From positions 62,001 through 126,000 of the forward strand of contig BPJC01000004.1 in the NCBI GenBank assembly GCA_026004415.1: a DNA stretch of 64,000 nucleotides, in the 5' to 3' direction. A program made the translations under genes and the position numbers. The DNA comes from Patescibacteria group bacterium. Lineage in GTDB: Bacteria > Patescibacteriota > Microgenomatia > UBA1406 > GWC2-37-13. Below, one piece after another: positions 4,648 through 37,183 of this stretch. Within the stretch, counting starts at the first letter, position 1, and each line of letters opens with the position of its first letter. Below the pieces are notes generated by a model. That model saw only the letters and a list, made by a program, of their open reading frames with translations, searched no databases and had not been told where the DNA came from.

Positions 4648-5645
4648 TCAACCTAATTTCTGATCAATTATTTTAAGCAACACCTTGGCTGTTTTGCTAT
4701 AACTATGCCTTAACACACTTCTGACAACCTCATCTGATTTATGTTGTTTGTTAATCCTTTTTGACAACAGATTAGCTCTTATAACTCTTGGGATCTCTGC
4801 CCAGATTATCTTTGACCATCTCACTGTTATACTTTTTGTAATGATCAACAATCTCTTTTTTTTATGGGTTCTTTATTGATTATAATATAATCAAGAGGTC
4901 TTTGTAAATATTTCTCTATTACTTTTACATAATCTTGAGCTGTAAAACTGTGTGTTTCTCCTGGTTTAGTAAATAAATTAACAAAAAAAATGATCTTAGC
5001 TTTTGTGTTTTTTACAGCATCGCGAATTTTTTTAACCAGCAGAACAGGAATAATGCTTGTATAAATATCTCCAGGACCTAAAATTATATAATCGGAGATC
5101 TTAATCTGTTTTATTGCCTTTGGATTGGCTGAAACATCAGAGTCAAGATCCAGTTTAATTATTCTATCTTCTGTGTTTCTGTAGTTGTCAATCTCTGCCT
5201 CCTGTCTGAGAATCTTGCCGCTTTTATACTCTGCTATAAGGTGAGAATGATCAAAAGTTACAGGTATTACACTTCCTTTACATTGCAAAAGTATATGGCA
5301 ATAATCTAAAACCTGCTGATATGAATCAGTGATTTTTTCTAAAGCAGACAAAAATAAATTGCCAAAGTTGTGACCTTTTAAATCACCAGATTCAAACCTA
5401 TACAAAAAAAGCTGTCTCCAAATTAAATCTTTAGCAGAGAGAGCAACTAAACACTGTCTAAGATCTCCTGGAGGCAAAACTCCTAATTGATCTCTAAGTT
5501 TTCCTGTAGACCCTCCAGAGTCAAACATCGTAACTATTGCTGAGATGTCAAGCAGATTGCTGTATTTTTTAAGACCTGATAAAACAACAAAAGAACCAGT
5601 TCCACCTCCAATAACTGAAACAGCGATCTTTTTTTTAGCTGTCAT
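4648..5645 (-). CDS. yvcK: YvcK/CofD-family morphogenesis protein, two frameshifts
   Basis: YvcK-type protein (UPF0052; fold shared with CofD), a UDP-sugar-binding factor linked to cell shape and central carbon use in Firmicutes and Actinobacteria. N-terminal GGGTGSFVVLSGLKKY, then FDSGGSTGKLRDQLGVLPPGD near residue 40, FGNLFLSAL near residue 95 and LGPGDIYTSI near residue 195. After INKEPIKK (codon about 262) the frame breaks in an eight-T run (plus 4856-4863); dropping one base continues as EIVDHYKKYNSEMVKDNLGRDP, and one extra base in GGG (4790-4792) leads into PRVIRANLLSKR and the C-terminus. ATGA overlap with murA. Corrected length about 332 aa fits the family. Confidence 0.85.
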
Positions 5646-7003
5646 TTCTTAACAATATCTGCGCCTAAATTTCTTAACTGTTGGTCAAAATTAGGATAAC
5701 CCCTTTCAATTATATCAACACCATCTACAATAGACTCTCCATTGCAAGCCAAACAAGCAATTACCAGACAAGCTCCAGCTCGCAGATCATTGACCTTGAC
5801 TACACCATTGTGAAACCTAACTGGTCCTTTAATCTCAATTGTTTGAAAATAATCTTTTTTATTCGGATCAAGATTAAACTGGAATTTATCGTACTCAGAT
5901 TCTGGAGTTCTAATAAACTCAATCTTTGCGCCAAGTTTTTTAAGTTCAGCAACATAACCAAATCTATCTTCAAAAACATACTCAGATAATCTTGATTTTC
6001 CATGAGCTTGAGTCATTAGAACTGTCCACATTGCCTGCCAATCAGTTTTAAAACCAGGATATGGAGCTGTCTCAATATCAACTGGTTTAAGATTATCAGA
6101 TTTATAAAACTCAAACAGTCTGATGATCAATAATTTTAAACTCAGCTTCAGCTTTTTTTTAAATTGTCCAAAAAAAACCTGGTAATCCGAAACCTCTGCG
6201 CCAGAGACCTCTAATCCTTTTTCCAGACAACCAAACCTAAAACAGCATACGAAACAGCTTCATTATGATCGCCTTTTACAAAAACTTCAGTATTTAGCCT
6301 AAAATTTTTCTGCTCTGGAGGGTTTGCAATTATGGTTTTTGGATCATTTGGCAGTCTTTTAATATCAACGCCTGCTTTTTGAAACATTGCGATTAACTCA
6401 TCTACCTCTGGCTCCAAAGCTGAGTTTTTTAATAACAACCTGTTTATCTGCAAAAACAGAAAGCATTACTAAGGTCTCAGTGCCAGTGTGAGATGGTTTT
6501 GGAAAACAATACTCTCCGCCAATAGGCTTTTCTTTTTTTAAGATGATAATAACCATCAGACGAACTGTAAACCACATCGACTCCTAAAGCCTTAACACCA
6601 TCTATAATTCTATCAATTGGTCTGGCTCCTATTCTACACCCGCCTGGATTAGGAACAAAACATTCTCCGACTCTATATAAAAGTGGAGCTAAAAACATAA
6701 ACGAGACCCTTATTTTTGAGCCATGCAACCATATCTACCTTATTATAATTTAGGTTGTTAGATCTTATCTCAATTGTGTTTTCATCAATCCAATTAAACT
6801 CTCCGCCTAAATCTTTGATGATATGTAATACCTCATTAACATCTCTAATTCTTGGAATATTTTTTAACACAATGCCAGATTTAAAAAAACAAAGAAGCAA
6901 TAAGAAGTTTTAAACTAGAATTTTTGCCTCCAGTGACTCTAACATCACCTTCAAGCAGTTTGCCTCCGTTTATAACATAAACATTTTCAATAGCGTTATT
7001 CAT
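5642..7003 (-). CDS. murA: UDP-GlcNAc enolpyruvyl transferase MurA, many frameshifts
   Basis: First committed step of murein precursor synthesis. Assembled from at least five frame segments: GGKLLEGDVRVTGGKNSSLK at the start, KNIPRIRDVNEVLHIIKDLG, the catalytic-loop cysteine block PGGCRIGARPIDR (fosfomycin-target Cys), NSALEPEVDELIAMFQKAG, and the C-terminal PYPGFKTDWQAMWTVLMTQA and DLRAGACLVIACL. About nine single-base indels separate them, nearly all one base too many in A or T runs of 5-8 (for example 6153-6160, 6170-6177, 6893-6899). The amino acid sequence between indels is well conserved and total length (about 453 codons) is near normal, so this looks like an error-rich stretch. Start 3 bp after murB; ATGA overlap with yvcK. 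Confidence 0.85.
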
Positions 7004-30063: not shown

Positions 30064-30101
30064 TTTTACATTGCTTTTATTTTTTTAAAAACAATGTAAA
30101 A
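30064..30101 (-). terminator. Possible terminator hairpin at the end of the 30085-33084 gene
   Basis: Perfect 10-bp inverted repeat (TTTTACATTG at 30064-30073 against CAATGTAAAA at 30092-30101) overlapping the stop codon at 30085. AT-rich and followed by only four T on the minus strand, so a weak candidate; it would insulate rpsO from upstream transcription. Confidence 0.35.
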
Positions 30102-33084
30102 AAATGTCAAAACAAGTATGCCAAAACCCAAAAACTGCAAGTACTGAGGCCAAAAAAACAATTATAATTTGTATCGGTTTTTCATTTTCCGTTTCTTCAA
30201 TAAGCACTTTGTCAATTTCCCATCCATTTGCCCAATTATTTACCAAAACATGCTCCTTTATCTCTTTGCCGAAAATAAAAGGAAAATAAATATCAATCCA
30301 ATTTTTTATTTCTAATTTTGAATTTTTAATTTGAAAAGCCTTCCAACCGGAGTGATAGGATTGGGAGAGGTAAATAATTAAGTTATCTTGGGTTTTCAAA
30401 TTTTTTGGGAGTTTGACTTCGTACAAAAAATAGCTGTGTTTTTTAGTTTCGAAAGAATAAAGATCTTGTTTAGAAGATTTTGTATTTTCTGGATTAAAAT
30501 CTTTTTTTATAAATTTTAGAGATTTTAAATACCAGTAAGGTACTTGATAAATTTCTACGCTTTTTAAAATATTTTCAACTTTTTCCTTACCTTCAGAGAT
30601 ATTATCAAAAAAAATTTCATAATTTAATTCATAACTACCTCTCCGTGGTATTATAAAATAGTAAGTTTTTTCTTTTCCATCATTTTCCAAATAAGTTTCA
30701 AGGTCACTTTTTTTTGTTGTTTTATTAATAAAATTCACTAAAAAGCCTCTTATATTATCATTTTTAACCTTAACTTTAACTAAATAACCATTTCTTAATA
30801 ACATATTCGAGGTTACAACTTTAATACAGTTGTGGGAATTGATTGATGTTAAAACAAATTCATTATTTGATTTATTTAATTTAGCTAAACCTTCAGAGTT
30901 TTTATTACAAGCATTATTTTCTTGATTAATAAATTGTGGGTCATTTTTACTATCATAAATAAGAGTTTTTTCTTTTGGAATTTTGATTTTTAATTGTTTA
31001 TTTTCAATTAACAAATCTATATCAAAATCTAATGCTTTTTCTTGTTTTAGGATTTTAAATTCATAATTGTTTCTTTTTTCGACCAGTTTATATTGATGGT
31101 TATTTTTAGGAACATTGGCTAAAAAGTAAAGATAATTGCTGTCTTCTATTATTTTGTGTTCAAAATCTGAAGGCAATTTTCCGCTGAATAAGCTTCTAAA
31201 TGGATAATACACATTTGGTTCTTGATTTTTTGAAGTTAAATAATCTCCAAAATCTAAATAAGCTTGGTCTAAATTATTATAATTGTATTCGGGGTGGATA
31301 TTGAGTAAATTTGTCTTTATCTCAATAAAATTTTTTAAATCTTTACCAGTTAATTTGAAAACTTTAATATTGTTAAATTGAAAAATTTTTTTTACCAAAC
31401 CAGTTTTTTTAATTAGATCCTCATAAACTTCATAATCAATTTTCTTGCCAGCATTGTTTAAAATATTTTTATCTAAATAAATCCAAGAGATATCATATTT
31501 TTCTAAAACTTTTCTCAAAAGAAAAGAATTATTACTAAATATTGCTTGTTCTAATTCCCAGTAAAAATTTTCGTTTTGTTTACCCCAAGGAGTAAAAGCT
31601 AAATCAGTTATTGGTTGCGGTATTCCATACCAAATGAAGCCAGAATTTATTGTTCCCCATTTAGGTTGTACCCAAGCCCAGTACCAAGGAATAGGCAGTA
31701 TTGCTATTCTTTGATTTTTGTCTTGTTTTTGGAAAAAATCAAAGACTTGGAAATATTCATCAGGGATTTTAACTGCTAGATCTTCATAAAATAAATGACC
31801 TTTAAAAGCAGGAAGAGAATGGAAAATAATGATAATAAAAAAAATTATCGCCAAAATTTTTTTTATTTTATCATTTTTAAGATATTCAAAAAGATAGAAA
31901 ATTCCTAAACCAATCATTATTGAGTATGACAAAGCATAAATGATAGAAAATTTTGTAAATGTAAAGCGAAAGATTGTTGCAAATAAAGGAATATATTTTC
32001 TAGCTAATTCGGTAATTAAGCTAAATATTGGAACATCAGTTGCTAGCATAGTTAAAGAAAAGAAATACAAAACCACAAATGGTAAGTATTTTTTGTTTTT
32101 ATTTTTTAGAGTATTAAAAATCCCAAATAATGCTAAAAAGAAAAAAACAAAACAAGTGGCTTTATAAAAAGGACTATCAATATGTTTTCTCCAATCAATC
32201 ATCATAAAGTCAACATAACCTTTTTTTGTGTTTCAAATACTTAAAATCAATTGTTAGGCTCTTCATATAAATAATATCGGCAAGATTGGCATATTTTTTA
32301 TTGCGGTAAAAGATGTCATTACTTGCCATTTGATAGTTTTTGGCATTAGCAACAGTTTTTGAATAAGTCAAAAATGAATAGGTTGTTGGTAAAAGCCAAA
32401 ATGCATTAACAATCAAAATTGTTAAAAATGCAACTAAAGTATTTTTTAAATCTTTTGGCTTTAAAAAAATATTTGTTAATAAAAAAACAGAAACCCCTAA
32501 AAGATATACCGCAAATAATGTGGGTATGTGAGCTTGAGAGGTAGTTAAAAGTAAAATTAGAGCAAAGATAATCAATCCTTTTTTTCTTTTTTTTGAAGAA
32601 AATTTAATAATGATAAAAAAAGCCACGGTAAAGCACTAAAATGAATTACAAATGGTTCAAAAGGTAGAAAAAATTGCTGAATAATATAAAAGTTTAAGAG
32701 ATAAAATAGTGCGCTTAAAATACTGATAAATTTATTTTTTATAATTTTTTTAAGTAATAAATATTGACCCAATCCTCCTAAAAAATATAAAGAAAATACA
32801 AAAAACCAACGGACAAATGAGATAGGAAAAAACAAAGAAATAAAAAATCTATATAAATCATGAATTAAATTAGCGGCGTGTGAAAAATTATCCAAAGCAC
32901 CAAGTCCTCGATAATGTTGCCAAGAAGAAAATAATGTTCTTGTAATATTTTCCTTAAAATTAAATTCAGGGAAAAGATTATCCCAGCCAATAAGATATGT
33001 TTCAGATTTATAATTAATAAAAAATAATATTCCTGATGAAAGTAAAATTAAAGAGAGGAAAAAAATTTTTTTTAATAGACTCAT
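30085..33084 (-). CDS. Very large polytopic membrane protein (YfhO/AftD-like GT-C candidate), two frameshifts
   Basis: Three frame segments join to about 1000 aa. Residues 1-550 or so hold more than ten membrane helices; after the first comes an external loop LIGWDNLFPEFNFKENI, reminiscent of the N-terminus of arabinofuranosyltransferase-like and YfhO-like GT-C proteins. The C-terminal half is a long soluble, beta-rich looking region ending with one more membrane helix. Breaks: the A8-G-A7 stretch at 32579-32594 (one base missing) and an A7 at 32221-32227 (one base too many); correction gives KKRKKGLIIFALILLL and KHKKGYVDFMMIDW. Follows a family-2 glycosyltransferase by 11 bp. Likely adds sugars to a surface polymer; substrate unknown. 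Confidence 0.65.
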
Positions 33085-33095
33085 ATATCTTTATT

Positions 33096-34010
33096 TTAGC
33101 GGAAAGCAAAATGAAATTTTGAGAGAAAATATTCAAAAGAAAGTTTTTTAATTAATAATTTTTTTAGTAAAGGCATTTTAAAACGCCAGAATTCATAGAG
33201 AGAAATTATTAAAAAATTTGGCAAAAAAGAAACAATTAAAATTTGAACAATATTAATAAAAATACCTCTAATTGATGGTTTATAATTCCAATACAGAATT
33301 GCTTTAATTCTAGATTTAAAAGTGAGATAAAATGTTTTTTTTGGATTTTTTAAAGAATTTGAATCGTAATGAATGCGGTATTTATATAGAATTTCCTTAG
33401 TATTGGCAAATTTACCTTTTGATAGAAGTTTGAAAAAAAGATATGCATCTTCAGCAGTAGTATGATTTTGATAAGAAAACTTTTTAAAAATTTTGGCATA
33501 GGTCAAAATAGTTGCATGTTGAATAGGCATAATTTCTATCATTTTTTTATAAATTGTTTGATGATCACAAGGGAAAAATTTTTTAGCTATAGATTTACCT
33601 TTTGTGTTAATTATTTCCACTTGTGTTCCAACTAAAATAACATCTTTATGTTTATTAAGATATTTAATTTGTTTTTCTAATCTTTGAGGATGAGAGATAT
33701 CATCTGCGTCCATTCGCGCAATATAGTATCCTCTTGCTTTTTTTAAACCTAGATTTAATGCAGAAGCTAGTCCCTTATGTTTTGGTAAGCGAAAAATTTT
33801 GATTCTCTTATCTTTTTGACTATATTTTTTTAATATCTGCCAACTTTTATCTTTTGAACGATCATCAATAGCGATTAATTCCCAGTTTTTATATGTTTGT
33901 TTTCTAATACTTTCAATTGCTTCCACTAAGAAATTGCCTGCATTATAAACAGGCATAATTACAGAAACTAAAGGATTATTTCCCCTCTTCTTTGAATTAT
34001 TGCTTTTCAT
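33096..34010 (-). CDS. Family 2 glycosyltransferase
   Basis: 304 aa. GT-A fold: PLVSVIMPVYNAGNFLVEAI at the N-terminus, IAIDDRSKD near residue 47 and ARMDADDISHP near 95 (DxD metal site), with GTQVE near 125; a hydrophobic C-terminal segment (about 240-270) may touch the membrane. Start ATG at 34010 is chosen because GTAGAGGAAAA sits directly before it, one of the few clear ribosome binding sites here; an in-frame ATG seven codons upstream lies inside a hairpin (34022-34042). Pairs with the large membrane protein downstream. Confidence 0.85.
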   Translation of the reverse strand: MKSNNSKKRGNNPLVSVIMPVYNAGNFLVEAIESIRKQTYKNWELIAIDDRSKDKSWQILKKYSQKDKRIKIFRLPKHKGLASALNLGLKKARGYYIARMDADDISHPQRLEKQIKYLNKHKDVILVGTQVEIINTKGKSIAKKFFPCDHQTIYKKMIEIMPIQHATILTYAKIFKKFSYQNHTTAEDAYLFFKLLSKGKFANTKEILYKYRIHYDSNSLKNPKKTFYLTFKSRIKAILYWNYKPSIRGIFINIVQILIVSFLPNFLIISLYEFWRFKMPLLKKLLIKKLSFEYFLSKFHFAFR

Positions 34011-34021
34011 TTTTCCTCTAC

Positions 34022-34042
34022 CAACAACCATTTTAGTTGTTG
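34022..34042 (-). promoter_or_regulatory. Hairpin just upstream of the glycosyltransferase start
   Basis: Perfect 7-bp stem CAACAAC/GTTGTTG (34022-34028 with 34036-34042), 7-nt loop. On the minus strand it ends about 11 nt before the start codon, immediately before the ribosome binding site, and includes an alternative ATG. Could tune translation or mark an RNA end. Confidence 0.4.
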
Positions 34043-34083
34043 ATATAGGAAAAATGAGGCCTTTTCGGATTTTTATTTATTAT

Positions 34084-34155
34084 CTGGCGTAAAGCCAGGG
34101 TCCACTTCATTGTGGACCAATCCTAGGCTGTATTCTCCCTTTTGATCGGGAGAAT
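34084..34155 (-). terminator. Row of three perfect hairpins downstream of the secreted-protein gene
   Basis: ATTCTCCC/GGGAGAAT (34132-34139 with 34148-34155), GGTCCAC/GTGGACC (34099-34105 with 34112-34118) and CTGGC/GCCAG (34084-34088 with 34094-34098), separated by only 0-13 nt. On the minus strand they lie 40-110 bp after the stop codon of the 34195-34749 gene. They could be terminators, although the sequence after them is A-rich rather than a T tract, or a structured RNA end or element terminus. Confidence 0.45.
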
Positions 34156-34194
34156 TACAGTCAGGGCCTCTATTAACATGTTAAGGATCAGGTT

Positions 34195-34749
34195 TCAGGG
34201 CCGTTGAACAATGTAGGCATGACCGTTGCTTCGACTGGGTGTTTTATAAACCCATTCAAACACACTTCCTGTCTCGATACGGCCGTTGCCGGATGGCACG
34301 AGACGACCGTCCACGCGAATGGGGTTCCCTGCAACGCTGTCGAACAGTAATGTGACTGGGCTTGGAAATTCAGTTCTACAATACGCTGTATTGACCCAGA
34401 TGGCACTAGACAAAGAATCATCCATGTACCCTCTGAGTTGGACTGGATCCCAAGCCAGCGAATGCGTTGCTACGCCGTCTGTCAGCTGGGTGACTCCCAA
34501 CTGACAGAAAGCTTCAATTGGTTTAATGACGGCCGTCGCTGCGGTCGTGGGCTCGACCGTCGCCGTGGCCGTCGCTGTTGGTGTGTCCGTCGGCGTGTCA
34601 GTGGATGTGTCCGTCGGCGTGTCAGTGGGTGTGGCCGTGGGTGCCGCCGTCGGTGCAGGTATGGCTGGCGCTGGTCGTAGCCAGCCCGGCCAGAGGAAGG
34701 CTCCAACGGCCAACACGACCACTAAAACTGTCAGAAGCAGTCGAATCAT
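34195..34749 (-). CDS. Exported Thr/Pro-rich linker protein of foreign composition
   Basis: 184 aa, no family recognised. An N-terminal hydrophobic helix (about residues 3-22) acts as anchor or uncleaved signal, then a T/P/D/A repeat linker (TPTDTPTDTSTDTPTDTPTA, about 38-72), then a globular domain of about 100 residues with two cysteines (FCQLG and YCRTEF) that could pair outside the cell. The coding sequence is roughly half or more G+C in a genome of about one third, and has a strong AAGGAGGTGG site 5 nt before the ATG, unlike the surrounding genes. Second gene after the zinc-ribbon gene (19 bp). Such Thr/Pro stalks are common in Chloroflexi surface proteins; origin by transfer is inference. 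Confidence 0.7.
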   Translation of the reverse strand: MIRLLLTVLVVVLAVGAFLWPGWLRPAPAIPAPTAAPTATPTDTPTDTSTDTPTDTPTATATATVEPTTAATAVIKPIEAFCQLGVTQLTDGVATHSLAWDPVQLRGYMDDSLSSAIWVNTAYCRTEFPSPVTLLFDSVAGNPIRVDGRLVPSGNGRIETGSVFEWVYKTPSRSNGHAYIVQRP

Positions 34750-34768
34750 GTTCCACCTCCTTTTTACT

Positions 34769-34930
34769 CTACCACCACTTGTCCATGAACTTCTTTATCC
34801 GTTGGTGAAAAGATTCCTGAGTCTGATGCGGATATTGGCGTTTCCGCGATGTTAGCTTTGCTCCACATCTACATTTTTCTGCTTCCTTCTTCACAAATTT
34901 GCCACATTTTGGGCACTTCGGTGTTGCCAT
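34769..34930 (-). CDS. Small zinc-ribbon protein
   Basis: 53 aa. Two knuckles, CPKCG at residues 6-10 and CRCGAKL at 21-27, give a four-cysteine zinc ribbon; the remainder is basic with aromatic residues, ending DKWW. Preceded by a perfect CAAGGAGGTGAATC ribosome binding site directly before the ATG. Function unknown; could bind nucleic acid or the structured RNA transcribed from the same strand just upstream. First gene of a two-gene unit with the exported protein. Composition is GC-richer than the flanking genome. Confidence 0.72.
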   Translation of the reverse strand: MATPKCPKCGKFVKKEAEKCRCGAKLTSRKRQYPHQTQESFHQRIKKFMDKWW

Positions 34931-34932
34931 GA

Positions 34933-35226
34933 TTCACCTCCTTGTTAGAATTTGTTGATAGGGCATTCGCCCACTCTGAGGAGAAAGAGCGTCTTGGAAC
35001 TTGGAACGTGGAACGTAAAATTTATTTTTTTGGGAATGTTTGCGAATTAGACTGTATAAGATTTTTGCTAATTTGTTTATCTCTTTCATCATTTCTTGAT
35101 AAAACTTTTTTTCTATAAGCTTAAACTGTTCTTTAATCATATCATGTTCTAAGTTCTAAGTTCCACGTTCTATATTTTTCTCCCCAAGGTGGGCGAGCCC
35201 TATCCGGATTACTTCAAGGAGGTGAA
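34933..35226. repeat. Imperfect inverted repeat, arms of about 80 bp
   Basis: Left arm about 34933-35020 and right arm about 35146-35226. Matching blocks in inverted order: TTCACCTCCTTG (34933-34944) with CAAGGAGGTGAA (35215-35226), GATAGGGC and CGCCCAC with GTGGGCG and GCCCTATC, and tandem GGAACTT/GGAACGT units (34994-35015) with GTTCTAAGTTCTAAGTTCC (35146-35164). The arms enclose the four-helix-bundle remnant, and the left arm contains the ribosome binding site of the zinc-ribbon gene. Confidence 0.7.
34934..35140 (-). pseudogene. C-terminal remnant of a four-helix-bundle (S23/Avd-like) protein
   Basis: Open frame of 68 codons. Its first 38 residues (KLIEKKFYQEMMKEINKLAK, ILYSLIRKHSQK) resemble the last helix of the S23-type four-helix-bundle proteins found as inserts in rRNA genes and scattered through CPR genomes; the usual protein is about 115-120 aa, so the first three helices are missing. 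The frame then reads through the GGAAC-type repeat and is probably not functional. It lies between the arms of an inverted repeat. Confidence 0.5.
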
Positions 35227-35231
35227 CCAAT

Positions 35232-35453
35232 TTTTTCGAACCACGCCGTTGCCACGCAACGACCGTTTATAGTTGACCCGTAACCTGACCCCGTTGGGAT
35301 TTTCTCCTGATAACCTTCTCTCCAACGCAAGCAAATTGCGTTGGTTAGGTTTCCGGACTAAATCCCTTTTTAAAGGTGCCCCGGTCTAAATTACCGGGAA
35401 GCAATTTTCCCGGCCTTTAAACCGGACAACCATCTGCCTCTGCAGATAATATG
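35232..35453 (-). ncRNA. Predicted structured RNA of unknown class
   Basis: About 220 nt without a coding frame but dense in nested perfect stems. Outer stem TTTAAACCGG/CCGGTCTAAA (35416-35425, 35381-35390) encloses TTCCCGG/CCGGGAA (35407-35413, 35394-35400). A second domain nests AAATCCC/GGGATTT (35360-35366, 35296-35302), AGGTT/AACCT (35347-35351, 35312-35316) and TTGCGTTGG/CCAACGCAA (35336-35344, 35322-35330). Also ATCTGC/GCAGAT (35432-35447) and CGTTGC/GCAACG (35247-35261). The first stem begins a few bases after the start point predicted from a minus-strand promoter. No match to RNase P, tmRNA, SRP, 6S or riboswitch cores I know. With 34931-35231 and 35454-35554 this fills the largest gene-free gap of the window. 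Confidence 0.55.
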
Positions 35454-35459
35454 ACTTAT

Positions 35460-35487
35460 AGTATATCATATAATAATAATTAGTCAA
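35460..35487 (-). promoter_or_regulatory. Promoter reading into the structured RNA
   Basis: Minus strand TTGACT (35482-35487), 16-bp spacer, TATACT (35460-35465). The predicted start, about 35453, is just ahead of the first stem at 35447. The remaining 35488-35554 up to the pyrG stop is AT-rich and shows nothing else. Confidence 0.55.
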
Positions 35488-35554
35488 GTTTATAAAATCC
35501 TTATAGTTTTATAAATGTATTTCTGTAAATTGAGATTTATAAAAAAATTAGGAA

Positions 35555-37183
35555 TTAAGCAAAACTGTTTTTAAGAGCTTCTTTCAAAAACCTTACAAAA
35601 ACCGGGTGTGGATTTAATGGACGAGATTTATATTCAGGATGTCCTTGCACTGCAAAATAGAAAGGGTGGTCTTTTTGGTTTAGTTCTATAATCTCGCAAA
35701 GATTCTCTACTGTTGATCTTGCACTTATTACTAGACCAGCTTTTTCAAACTCTTTGGCAAATTTGTCATTAAACTCGTATCTATGACGATGTCGTTCTGA
35801 GATAATTGTTTTTTTGTATATTTTATAGGCTAATGTATTGCGTTTGATCTTTGCTTGCCATGCGCCTAATCTCATCGTTCCTCCATAAGCTCTCTTTTGC
35901 ATATACTTCCTCTGTTTGGGCATAAGATGAACAACATCGTACTCTGTTTTAGGATCATTTTCTGTTGTGTTGGCCAAAGGCCAACCTAGTACATCTCTGG
36001 CAAAAGCCACTACTGCCAACTGCATACCATAGCATAAGCCTAAGTATGGAATCTTGTTTACCCTTGCGTAAGAAGCTGTTTTTATCATACCTTCTGCTCC
36101 TCTTTCTCCCCAGCCTATAGGAACTATAATGCCATCAGGGTTTCCAATTATAGAGACGCCTTTTTTCTCAACCTTTTCAGCAGAAATTAGCCTAAAATCA
36201 ATGCTAATGTTTAATTTCCAACTAGCATGATCCAAAGCATCAAATAATGATGAGTAGGCGTCTTTTAACTCATAGTCTCCGCTGTCAAAGTATTTTCCAA
36301 CTATTGCTATCTGAATTGTTTTATCTTTCTTTTTATGAATTTTATTTACTAATTTTTTCCATTTAGTAATATCAGGAGACCTAACTTCTAGATTAAGTTC
36401 TTTTAATACTTTTTCTGCCAGTTTCTGTTTGTTTAATATCAATGGCACTTCATAGGGGTGGTACACATTTGGGTTTGAGATTATATTCTCTGGTTTTACA
36501 TTACAGTACAAAGCAAACTTATCTATGCGTCTTGCGTCAAGAGGTTTTTCTCCTCTGGCAATTATAAAATCTGGCTGAATTCCCATTGAGTTTAAAATCA
36601 TTACTGAAAGTTGTGTTGGCTTTGTCTTAGGTTCTCCTAAATGAGAAGGTGTTGGCACATACGAAACATGTATATGAACAACATCACCGGGTTTTTTTAA
36701 AGCAAGCTGTCTGGCTGATTCATAGTAGAAAACATTTTGGTATTCACCAACTGTGCCGCCTAACTCAATTAGCACTATATCTGCCTGTTTTGTTTTACCT
36801 AAATGTTCTATTCTTTCGATAATCTCATTAGTGACAAATGGTATGGCTGAAACATCTTTGCCCTGATACTCAAACCTTCTTTCTTTATCAATTACTGTTT
36901 TATAGATCCTACCCATTGTAACAAAGTTGTCTTTACCCATATCTTCATCTAAAAATTTTTCATAGGTTCCAATATCCATATCTGCCTCAGTTCCATCTTC
37001 ACACAAAAAAACATCTCCATGCTCAATGGGGTTTATAGTACCTGCATCTAAATTCAGATAGTTTTCAAATTTTATAGGAGCTACTTTGTAACCAGAGCTT
37101 TTAAGCAGAAGAGCCAAGGAAGCTGTTGTGATACCTTTGCCAATGCCTGAAATAACACCTCCAGAAATGAAAATATACTTCAT
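35555..37183 (-). CDS. pyrG: CTP synthase PyrG
   Basis: Makes CTP from UTP, ATP and glutamine. About 542 aa: synthetase domain starting MKYIFISGGVISGIGKGITT with P-loop, then HGDVFLCEDGTEADMDIGTY, and a class I glutaminase domain with the nucleophile in LGLCYGMQ near residue 380 and GHPEYKSRP with the His-Glu pair near the end. The usual KxDPYxNxDPGT reads KFENYLNLDAGT. The second in-frame ATG (37183) is the start: TATAAT ends 7 nt upstream, and the first ATG (37192) lies within that -10 box. Confidence 0.94.
   Translation of the reverse strand: MKYIFISGGVISGIGKGITTASLALLLKSSGYKVAPIKFENYLNLDAGTINPIEHGDVFLCEDGTEADMDIGTYEKFLDEDMGKDNFVTMGRIYKTVIDKERRFEYQGKDVSAIPFVTNEIIERIEHLGKTKQADIVLIELGGTVGEYQNVFYYESARQLALKKPGDVVHIHVSYVPTPSHLGEPKTKPTQLSVMILNSMGIQPDFIIARGEKPLDARRIDKFALYCNVKPENIISNPNVYHPYEVPLILNKQKLAEKVLKELNLEVRSPDITKWKKLVNKIHKKKDKTIQIAIVGKYFDSGDYELKDAYSSLFDALDHASWKLNISIDFRLISAEKVEKKGVSIIGNPDGIIVPIGWGERGAEGMIKTASYARVNKIPYLGLCYGMQLAVVAFARDVLGWPLANTTENDPKTEYDVVHLMPKQRKYMQKRAYGGTMRLGAWQAKIKRNTLAYKIYKKTIISERHRHRYEFNDKFAKEFEKAGLVISARSTVENLCEIIELNQKDHPFYFAVQGHPEYKSRPLNPHPVFVRFLKEALKNSFA

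Follow-up and report, generated by a model that had tools for sequence, protein, structure and literature searches.

A short GC-rich island on a Patescibacteria (CPR) contig, in which a structured RNA, a zinc-ribbon gene, a gene for an exported protein and a row of hairpins are read from the same strand, raises the question of what holds these parts together and what the RNA does for the genes behind it. An earlier note on this DNA had taken the island for a foreign-looking, possibly mobile RNA-plus-protein unit. Here, we analyzed the island within the window (the whole stretch of 64,000 nucleotides under study) together with its counterparts in related genomes, and we consider it on balance probable that it is a surface-protein expression locus under the control of a large structured mRNA leader. 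Little work has been done on regulatory RNAs in Patescibacteria, and the 13 loci and the covariance models described below offer a starting point for learning what these bacteria sense.

Layout and composition of the locus

The features of the island are given in Table 1. Its parts form one unit, as the earlier note had proposed, and this unit recurs in other genomes: the leader RNA was found in 13 genomes belonging to six genera of a single CPR family, and the order of parts is broadly constant, running from the promoter through the leader RNA, the anti-Shine-Dalgarno (anti-SD), a hairpin, an extended Shine-Dalgarno (SD), a small gene (often a zinc ribbon) and a GC-rich exported protein with a Thr/Pro/Ala linker to hairpins and a glycosyltransferase. 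The promoter stands exactly where it had been placed, ties for the top score of the region in a consensus scan, and has TATACT-type counterparts at the corresponding place in relatives. Dense hairpins are present on both sides of the island, but with arms that are 91% and 82% complementary the word 'perfect' used for them is slightly too strong.

Table 1. Features of the island and its surroundings, in the direction of transcription (positions in the window).
Feature	Position	Strand	Basis or remark
Flanking hairpin beyond promoter	35495-35556		82% complementary
Sigma-70-type promoter, TTGACT-16-TATACT, extended -10	35460-35487	-	Consensus scan 10/12, TG before second hexamer
Structured leader RNA, type II; hairpins 35432-35447 and 35381-35427	35215-35456	-	Fold z -4.5; homologous leaders in 12 other genomes; no Rfam family
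Leader core, GCACCUUUAAAAAGGGAUUU..hairpin..AAAUCCCAACGGGGUCAGGUUAC	35280-35379	-	Covariance model R1; 5-pair stem kept in 9/9 loci
Anti-SD, GGUUCACCUCCUUG	35215-35228	-	Duplex with SD 34931-34944
D-stem, 5' arm	35184-35204	-	14 pairs in 10 genomes
Probable decayed IVP (23S-rRNA-intervening-sequence-type) element, apical loop of D-stem	34981-35182	-	Flanks are complementary GAACNTAGAAC-type repeats
ORF remnant inside IVP element	34934-35140 (ORF as called)	-	
D-stem, 3' arm	34957-34979	-	14 pairs in 10 genomes
Masked SD of zinc-ribbon gene, CAAGGAGGUGAAUC	34931-34944	-	
Zinc-ribbon protein, 53 aa	34769-34930	-	Zn_ribbon_3, E 7.5e-5, below Pfam cut-off
Second strong SD, AAAAAGGAGGUGGAAC	34750-34765	-	
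Exported protein, 184 aa: N-terminal hydrophobic helix, Thr/Pro/Ala stalk, orphan C-terminal domain	34195-34749	-	GC3 0.56
3' element: AACCUGAUCCUUAACA at stop codon (34179-34194), then hairpin domain closed by GAGGCC/GGCCUC (34171-34047)	34047-34194	-	Read from sequence
Hairpin enclosing glycosyltransferase start codon	34007-34057	-	22-nt arms, 91% complementary
GT2 glycosyltransferase, next gene; likely start 34010 (ORF called from 34031)	33096-34010	-	Glycos_transf_2, E 5.2e-42

The island is markedly richer in G+C than its surroundings, as had been noticed: the twelve GC-richest 500-nt segments of the 64 kb all start within 34001-34551, with a maximum of 58% against a mean of 32.7%, and the exported-protein gene has a third-position GC (GC3) of 0.56, where 45 ORFs of the window average 0.27 (sd 0.06). 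The enrichment is not uniform, being only moderate in 35200-35450 and interrupted by an AT-rich section at 34990-35190, which is the probable IVP remnant and has an origin other than that of the rest of the island. The island occurs once in its 1.0-Mb genome (14 contigs). Exported-protein genes of several genera are equally GC-rich (GC3 about 0.5-0.64); since high GC is common to these orthologous loci, it is a property of the locus and no mark of recent import, and the recent foreign origin that the composition had suggested is not supported.

The abrupt change in GC could also betray contamination or a chimeric assembly at 34080 or 35470. The junction with the GT2 gene, however, recurs with a matching GC step in independently assembled genomes, the contig is 144 kb long and the contamination estimate is 2.7%, and we regard such an artefact as exceedingly remote; the absence of any similar unit elsewhere together with signs of chimerism, which the earlier note had named as refuting its reading, was not what we found.

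Leader RNA and Shine-Dalgarno pairing

The structured RNA proposed earlier is supported by a predicted fold of the minus-strand RNA 35456-35180 of -105 kcal/mol (z = -4.5), better than 200 of 200 shuffled sequences. When this RNA part was compared by BLAST with 96 relatives, mostly its AT-rich middle and the repeats therein were matched. One match, contig 37 of genome G017, carries the parts in the order of the window and encodes another exported protein; the DNA upstream of it can be aligned with the RNA of the window over GCACYUUUAAAA, a stem, a hairpin and a closing stem, followed by UCAGGUUAC. A covariance model built from these two sequences (R1; one A of the window omitted to keep the register) and run within the family only (72 genomes) matched G678 at E 9e-8 and, more weakly, G011, and at both loci promoter, RNA, anti-SD, SD, exported protein and glycosyltransferase are all present; the other R1 matches with E between 0.01 and 1 were rejected after reading their contexts. 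Regions upstream of GT2 orthologues and of exported-protein relatives added G001, G010, G030, G058 and G679, as well as G038 for the D-stem only. R2, a second model for which G030, G058 and G679 were used and G011 was left out, matched G020, G675, G677 and G059 and, independently, G011 at E 1.8e-5; outside the family, it had no match among 281 genomes of the class. Each genome holds one convincing copy according to the RNA models.

Two sequence patterns were also rejected: GCACNTTTAAAA..CAGGTTAC gave eight matches in viral contigs, all apparently coding DNA without structure, and TTTAAAA..CAGGTTAC, found class-wide in 49 genomes, occurs at about the rate of the reversed control and is attributed to chance. 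Using the Rfam 15 covariance models at curated score on the window and 11 relatives, only tRNAs were found and the leader matched none, the sub-threshold matches being chance. Group I and group II introns, tmRNA, diversity-generating retroelements and OLE/ROOL RNAs were rejected on the grounds of no Rfam match and no reverse transcriptase; for a diversity-generating retroelement in particular, no reverse transcriptase is seen in the unit and IVP is only distantly Avd-like.

Two side observations concern the sampling of loci. The L141 sequence (UBA6130) shows by eye, at 5340-5700, GCACUUUUACAAUUGGG and a long pairing CCAUACUCCUU / AAGGGGGUAUGG upstream of an exported protein, and is a probable further member. 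The G059 leader lies at the end of contig 15 (end of L203), and contig 21 (start of L204) opens with an extended SD, behind which come an exported protein and then GT2.

The leaders fall into two types. Type II leaders (window, G017, G678, G001) are short. Type I leaders (G030, G058, G679, G677, G020, G059, G675, and G011 by its parts) extend over 370-460 nt to UCAGGUU, as measured in seven aligned leaders, and carry near their start an intrinsic-terminator-like hairpin, e.g. CCCAGGAAU..AUUCUUGGG followed by a U run, the 3' half of which could, in most of them, pair alternatively with the following GCCCAAG. A terminator is called in the G011 leader, and the window leader is without this hairpin. 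Both types have a core in common, consisting of GCACYUUUA, a stem, a terminal hairpin and a closing stem.

In the covariation check that the earlier note had asked for, three helices covary. All five pairs of the core stem form in each of nine loci, and every position shows two or more standard pair types among them. The hairpin before UCAGG (or its counterpart) is paired in 48 of 48 cells over eight leaders, with a covariation of 1.083 compared to 0.230 +/- 0.079 for shuffled sequences and at most 46% pairing in slid versions. The 14 pairs of the D-stem are 91.4% paired over 10 genomes (slid versions at most 46%; 0 of 500 shuffles), with 28 double-changed cells against 9.5 +/- 2.2 and a covariation of 0.617 against 0.208 +/- 0.037 in shuffled sequences; the distal part of the stem (CACUUUGG/UYAGAGNG) shows sequence conservation, and the proximal part shows compensatory variation. 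The stem arms were aligned by hand because MAFFT alignments of the whole leader lose register, for which reason no single model spans both leader types; the slide controls argue against hand-aligned stems being an artefact.

The earlier note had contrasted strong ribosome binding sites in the island with their absence at most other starts. Indeed, when 45 ORFs of 150 aa or longer were compared, a match to the extended SD exceeding 6 nt was seen for the exported-protein gene alone, where it spans 10 nt (AAAGGAGGTG); the SD of the zinc-ribbon gene is AAGGAGGTGAATC. Three of the five copies of AGGAGGTG in the window lie inside the island, and the one at 35217 (+ strand) is the anti-SD of the leader. 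The duplex of this anti-SD with the SD of the zinc-ribbon gene is predicted at -23.7 kcal/mol (z -8.5), and the helix lies outside the D-stem, which it closes. The SD/anti-SD duplex is better than anti-SD-side shuffles (fraction at most 0.02) in nine of the 13 leaders (window, G678, G017, G010, G011, G058, G030, G038, G020) and no better than these in G679, G001, G677 and G059 (0.13 in G059). Where the SD deviates, as with GGAGAU in G020 and GGAGGCG in G030, the anti-SD deviates to match. At the G678, G030 and G058 loci, the masked SD has no good start codon behind it, and masking may thus not be its role there, or not its only one. AGGUUA, complementary to UAACCU of the anti-SD, is put forward as a possible anti-anti-SD.

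Taken together, these results suggest a model in which a strong sigma-70-type promoter would yield a transcript with a multi-helix fold at its 5' end. At the end of the leader, the anti-SD would pair with the over-long SD, closing the D-stem and hiding the ribosome binding site of the first gene; upon refolding or cleavage of the leader, the exposed SD could capture ribosomes, leading to translation of the small gene and then of the GC-rich gene for the exported protein. In type I leaders transcription may, in addition, stop early.

S-layer protein mRNAs have structured leaders, and the island resembles these in having a structured leader before a surface protein gene of the abundant type. A long stable leader might simply support constitutive high expression of an abundant, S-layer-like surface protein with no switching, the structure protecting the message and the long SD raising initiation, as the strong promoter, the strong SD, the unusual codon composition and the structured RNA flanking the coding part on both sides would allow. 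The SD, however, is not open but paired with a matched anti-SD, changes in one being followed in the other, and the terminator-like hairpin of type I leaders would lower expression; we consider constitutive expression unlikely. Unlike S-layer proteins, the proteins here are small, with orphan, exchanged tip domains, and the RNA chassis is more constant than its product.

Control by the leader, in contrast, has parallels in translation-masking leaders such as riboswitch expression platforms, RNA thermometers and ribosomal-protein leaders. Two features of an SD-masking leader, helices with covariation and an SD paired with an upstream anti-SD (here a predicted pairing), are found in this long structured 5' leader, and type I leaders share with them a terminator-like hairpin with a competing pairing. 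The CPR leader differs in that it belongs to no Rfam family, precedes a surface protein instead of a metabolic or heat-shock gene, and has an SD that is a nearly full-length complement of the 16S tail.

A probable IVP element in the loop of the D-stem

The apical loop of the D-stem spans 466-501 nt in the IVP carriers G017, G678 and G030 and 204 nt in the window, compared to 17-20 nt in the nine leaders without IVP in which it was measured. The ORF remnant in the window loop resembles, by a weak match, the C-terminus of four-helix-bundle proteins. At the corresponding place, G678 has a PF05635 23S_rRNA_IVP gene (E 9.2e-10) with one stop, G017 a frameshifted IVP gene and G030 an intact PF05635 gene (E 8.6e-31), which looks like a different subfamily. 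The GAACNTAGAAC-type repeat ends are complementary and extend the D-stem in the window, G017 and G678. The gene remnant listed by the earlier note as one of the parts of the unit is hence present, but it is a separate thing, probably a decayed IVP element in a hairpin loop. Overall, these results indicate that an IVP selfish element entered the apical loop more than once and that the window probably holds a decayed copy.

Intervening sequences (IVS) replace loops of rRNA helices (PMC4990558), and IVP is present in CPR rRNA (PMC11270868). As in IVS of 23S rRNA with PF05635 IVP/S23 genes, a PF05635 ORF lies in leaders of this family between complementary ends that lengthen the host hairpin and replace the loop of a structured RNA. 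Unlike in those, the host is the mRNA leader of an operon, no rRNA family being matched in the window, and different IVP subfamilies occupy the corresponding loop of different genomes; the element is therefore IVS-like but located outside rRNA. In the literature searched, we found no report of an IVP element in an mRNA leader, the class being described there only in rRNA, which the present case extends. It also makes testable whether IVP targets RNA hairpin loops in general, and how excision affects the message.

GGAACTTAGAAC-type repeats, like those flanking the IVP remnant, occur elsewhere in relatives (L004, L005, L007, L012, L013, L015, L016), with several per genome in G084, and may mark additional IVP elements located outside rRNA. 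The G678 and G030 leaders have also been entered by REP-like hairpins, TCATGCTGAACTTGTTTCAGCATCT and its relatives (L131:2150-2215; D region of L172).

Exchange of tip domains and exchange or movement of the locus

The first small gene encodes a double zinc ribbon at the corresponding place in G011, probably a zinc ribbon in G677 and G679, and different short proteins in other genomes. The exported protein belongs to no Pfam family, and a search with its C-terminal part in 380 genomes of the phylum gave two marginal matches and no convincing relative; the whole protein matched 119 genomes of the class, mostly via the Thr/Pro linker, and these matches were set aside. PADLOC and PDB searches gave no match, PHROGs no more than weak matches, to families whose function is unknown, phage DNA no match, plasmid DNA only short unconvincing matches, and neither protein had relatives in viral contigs. 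The C-terminal domain differs between genomes and the RNA chassis is constant. One such domain is common to G678, G011, G010, L140 and L141; in G678 and G011 it is preceded by a second module, which in L141 comes after it, indicating that tip domains are swapped and reordered while the chassis stays the same. For the tip domain of relatives, structure modelling (mean pLDDT 58) gave a small beta domain with no significant fold match.

In relatives, the neighbours of the locus include DUF11 or sortase genes and glycosyltransferases, and we infer that the exported protein is probably a glycosylated surface protein, in which a membrane helix and a Thr/Pro/Ala stalk would carry the exchangeable tip domain. 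Such a protein probably meets a partner cell. The constancy of the leader RNA, set against the turnover of the protein encoded behind it, suggests a switch for the surface protein. More tentatively, the leader may represent a new class of large regulatory RNA, type I combining an attenuator with an SD mask, that switches a hypervariable CPR surface protein on and off and offers IVP selfish elements, in its apical loop, a landing site other than rRNA. As a side observation, DUF11 proteins are encoded just upstream of the locus in relatives (L131:642-1310, L134:5939-6577, L141:3824-5349), two of them ending in a PSAGPE-type sorting signal, and a sortase gene lies just upstream in L141.

GT2 orthologues follow the unit in relatives. 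Between the two, the window has a divergent counterpart, recognized by eye and missed by model R3, of a 3' element of G017, G678, G001 and G030 that has a consensus fold and one copy per genome; the glycosyltransferase start codon is paired in the window, G017, G001 and G030. The structured 3' element and the hairpin over the next start codon might set the glycosyltransferase apart from the genes before it.

The 5' neighbour of the locus varies (pyrG, uppS, a DUF11 gene, a NYN gene), pyrG is without an adjoining unit in 27 relatives examined, and leader and 3'-element types cut across genera, as in G678, which belongs to the genus of G020 and G058 and yet has a type II leader. These findings indicate that the locus has been moved or exchanged. 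Furthermore, the 3' element is 77-88% identical between genomes, compared to 67-72% for GT2 and 65-72% for pyrG. A small mobile or exchangeable RNA-plus-protein element travelling between genomes would fit these findings, but selection on the RNA could also explain the conservation of the 3' element, and the features of a transposable element or integron cassette (a mobility gene, several copies or defined ends) were not found. The search for similar copies with conserved borders, as suggested earlier, did retrieve the unit in other genomes, but with one copy per genome, no defined or inverted ends and no target duplication, and the glycosyltransferase comes after it; no transposase, integrase or reverse transcriptase is seen in the unit, as stated before. 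A travelling element thus appears distinctly unlikely, the small mobile unit of the earlier note is not supported, and 'exchangeable surface locus' describes the unit better than 'mobile element'.

The structured parts on the 5' and 3' sides might also be processed into a free large noncoding RNA of the OLE/ROOL type, with the coding genes riding in a loop. OLE, ROOL and GOLLD RNAs (PMC12286853) are likewise several hundred nucleotides long, with many helices and few host species, and the size and complexity of type I leaders would suit such an RNA. In addition, AACCUGA at the stop codon complements UCAGGUU of the leader in the window, G017, G678 and G030, and might possibly join it, which we put forward as a suggestion only. 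Against this, a local ACCUGA can pair instead in G679, G058, G020 and G675, G001 is without both motifs, and, unlike in those RNAs, there is no Rfam match (OLE, ROOL and GOLLD included) and coding genes with a masked ribosome binding site come after the leader. We hold a free RNA to be very unlikely and retain the mRNA leader as the preferred reading.

Downstream of GT2, a membrane-protein gene (window 30085-33084, minus strand), known in relatives as 'GWDxLxPE' proteins, is broken into three ORFs (32572-33084, 32210-32626 and 30085-32205), which reflects either a pseudogene or homopolymer errors.
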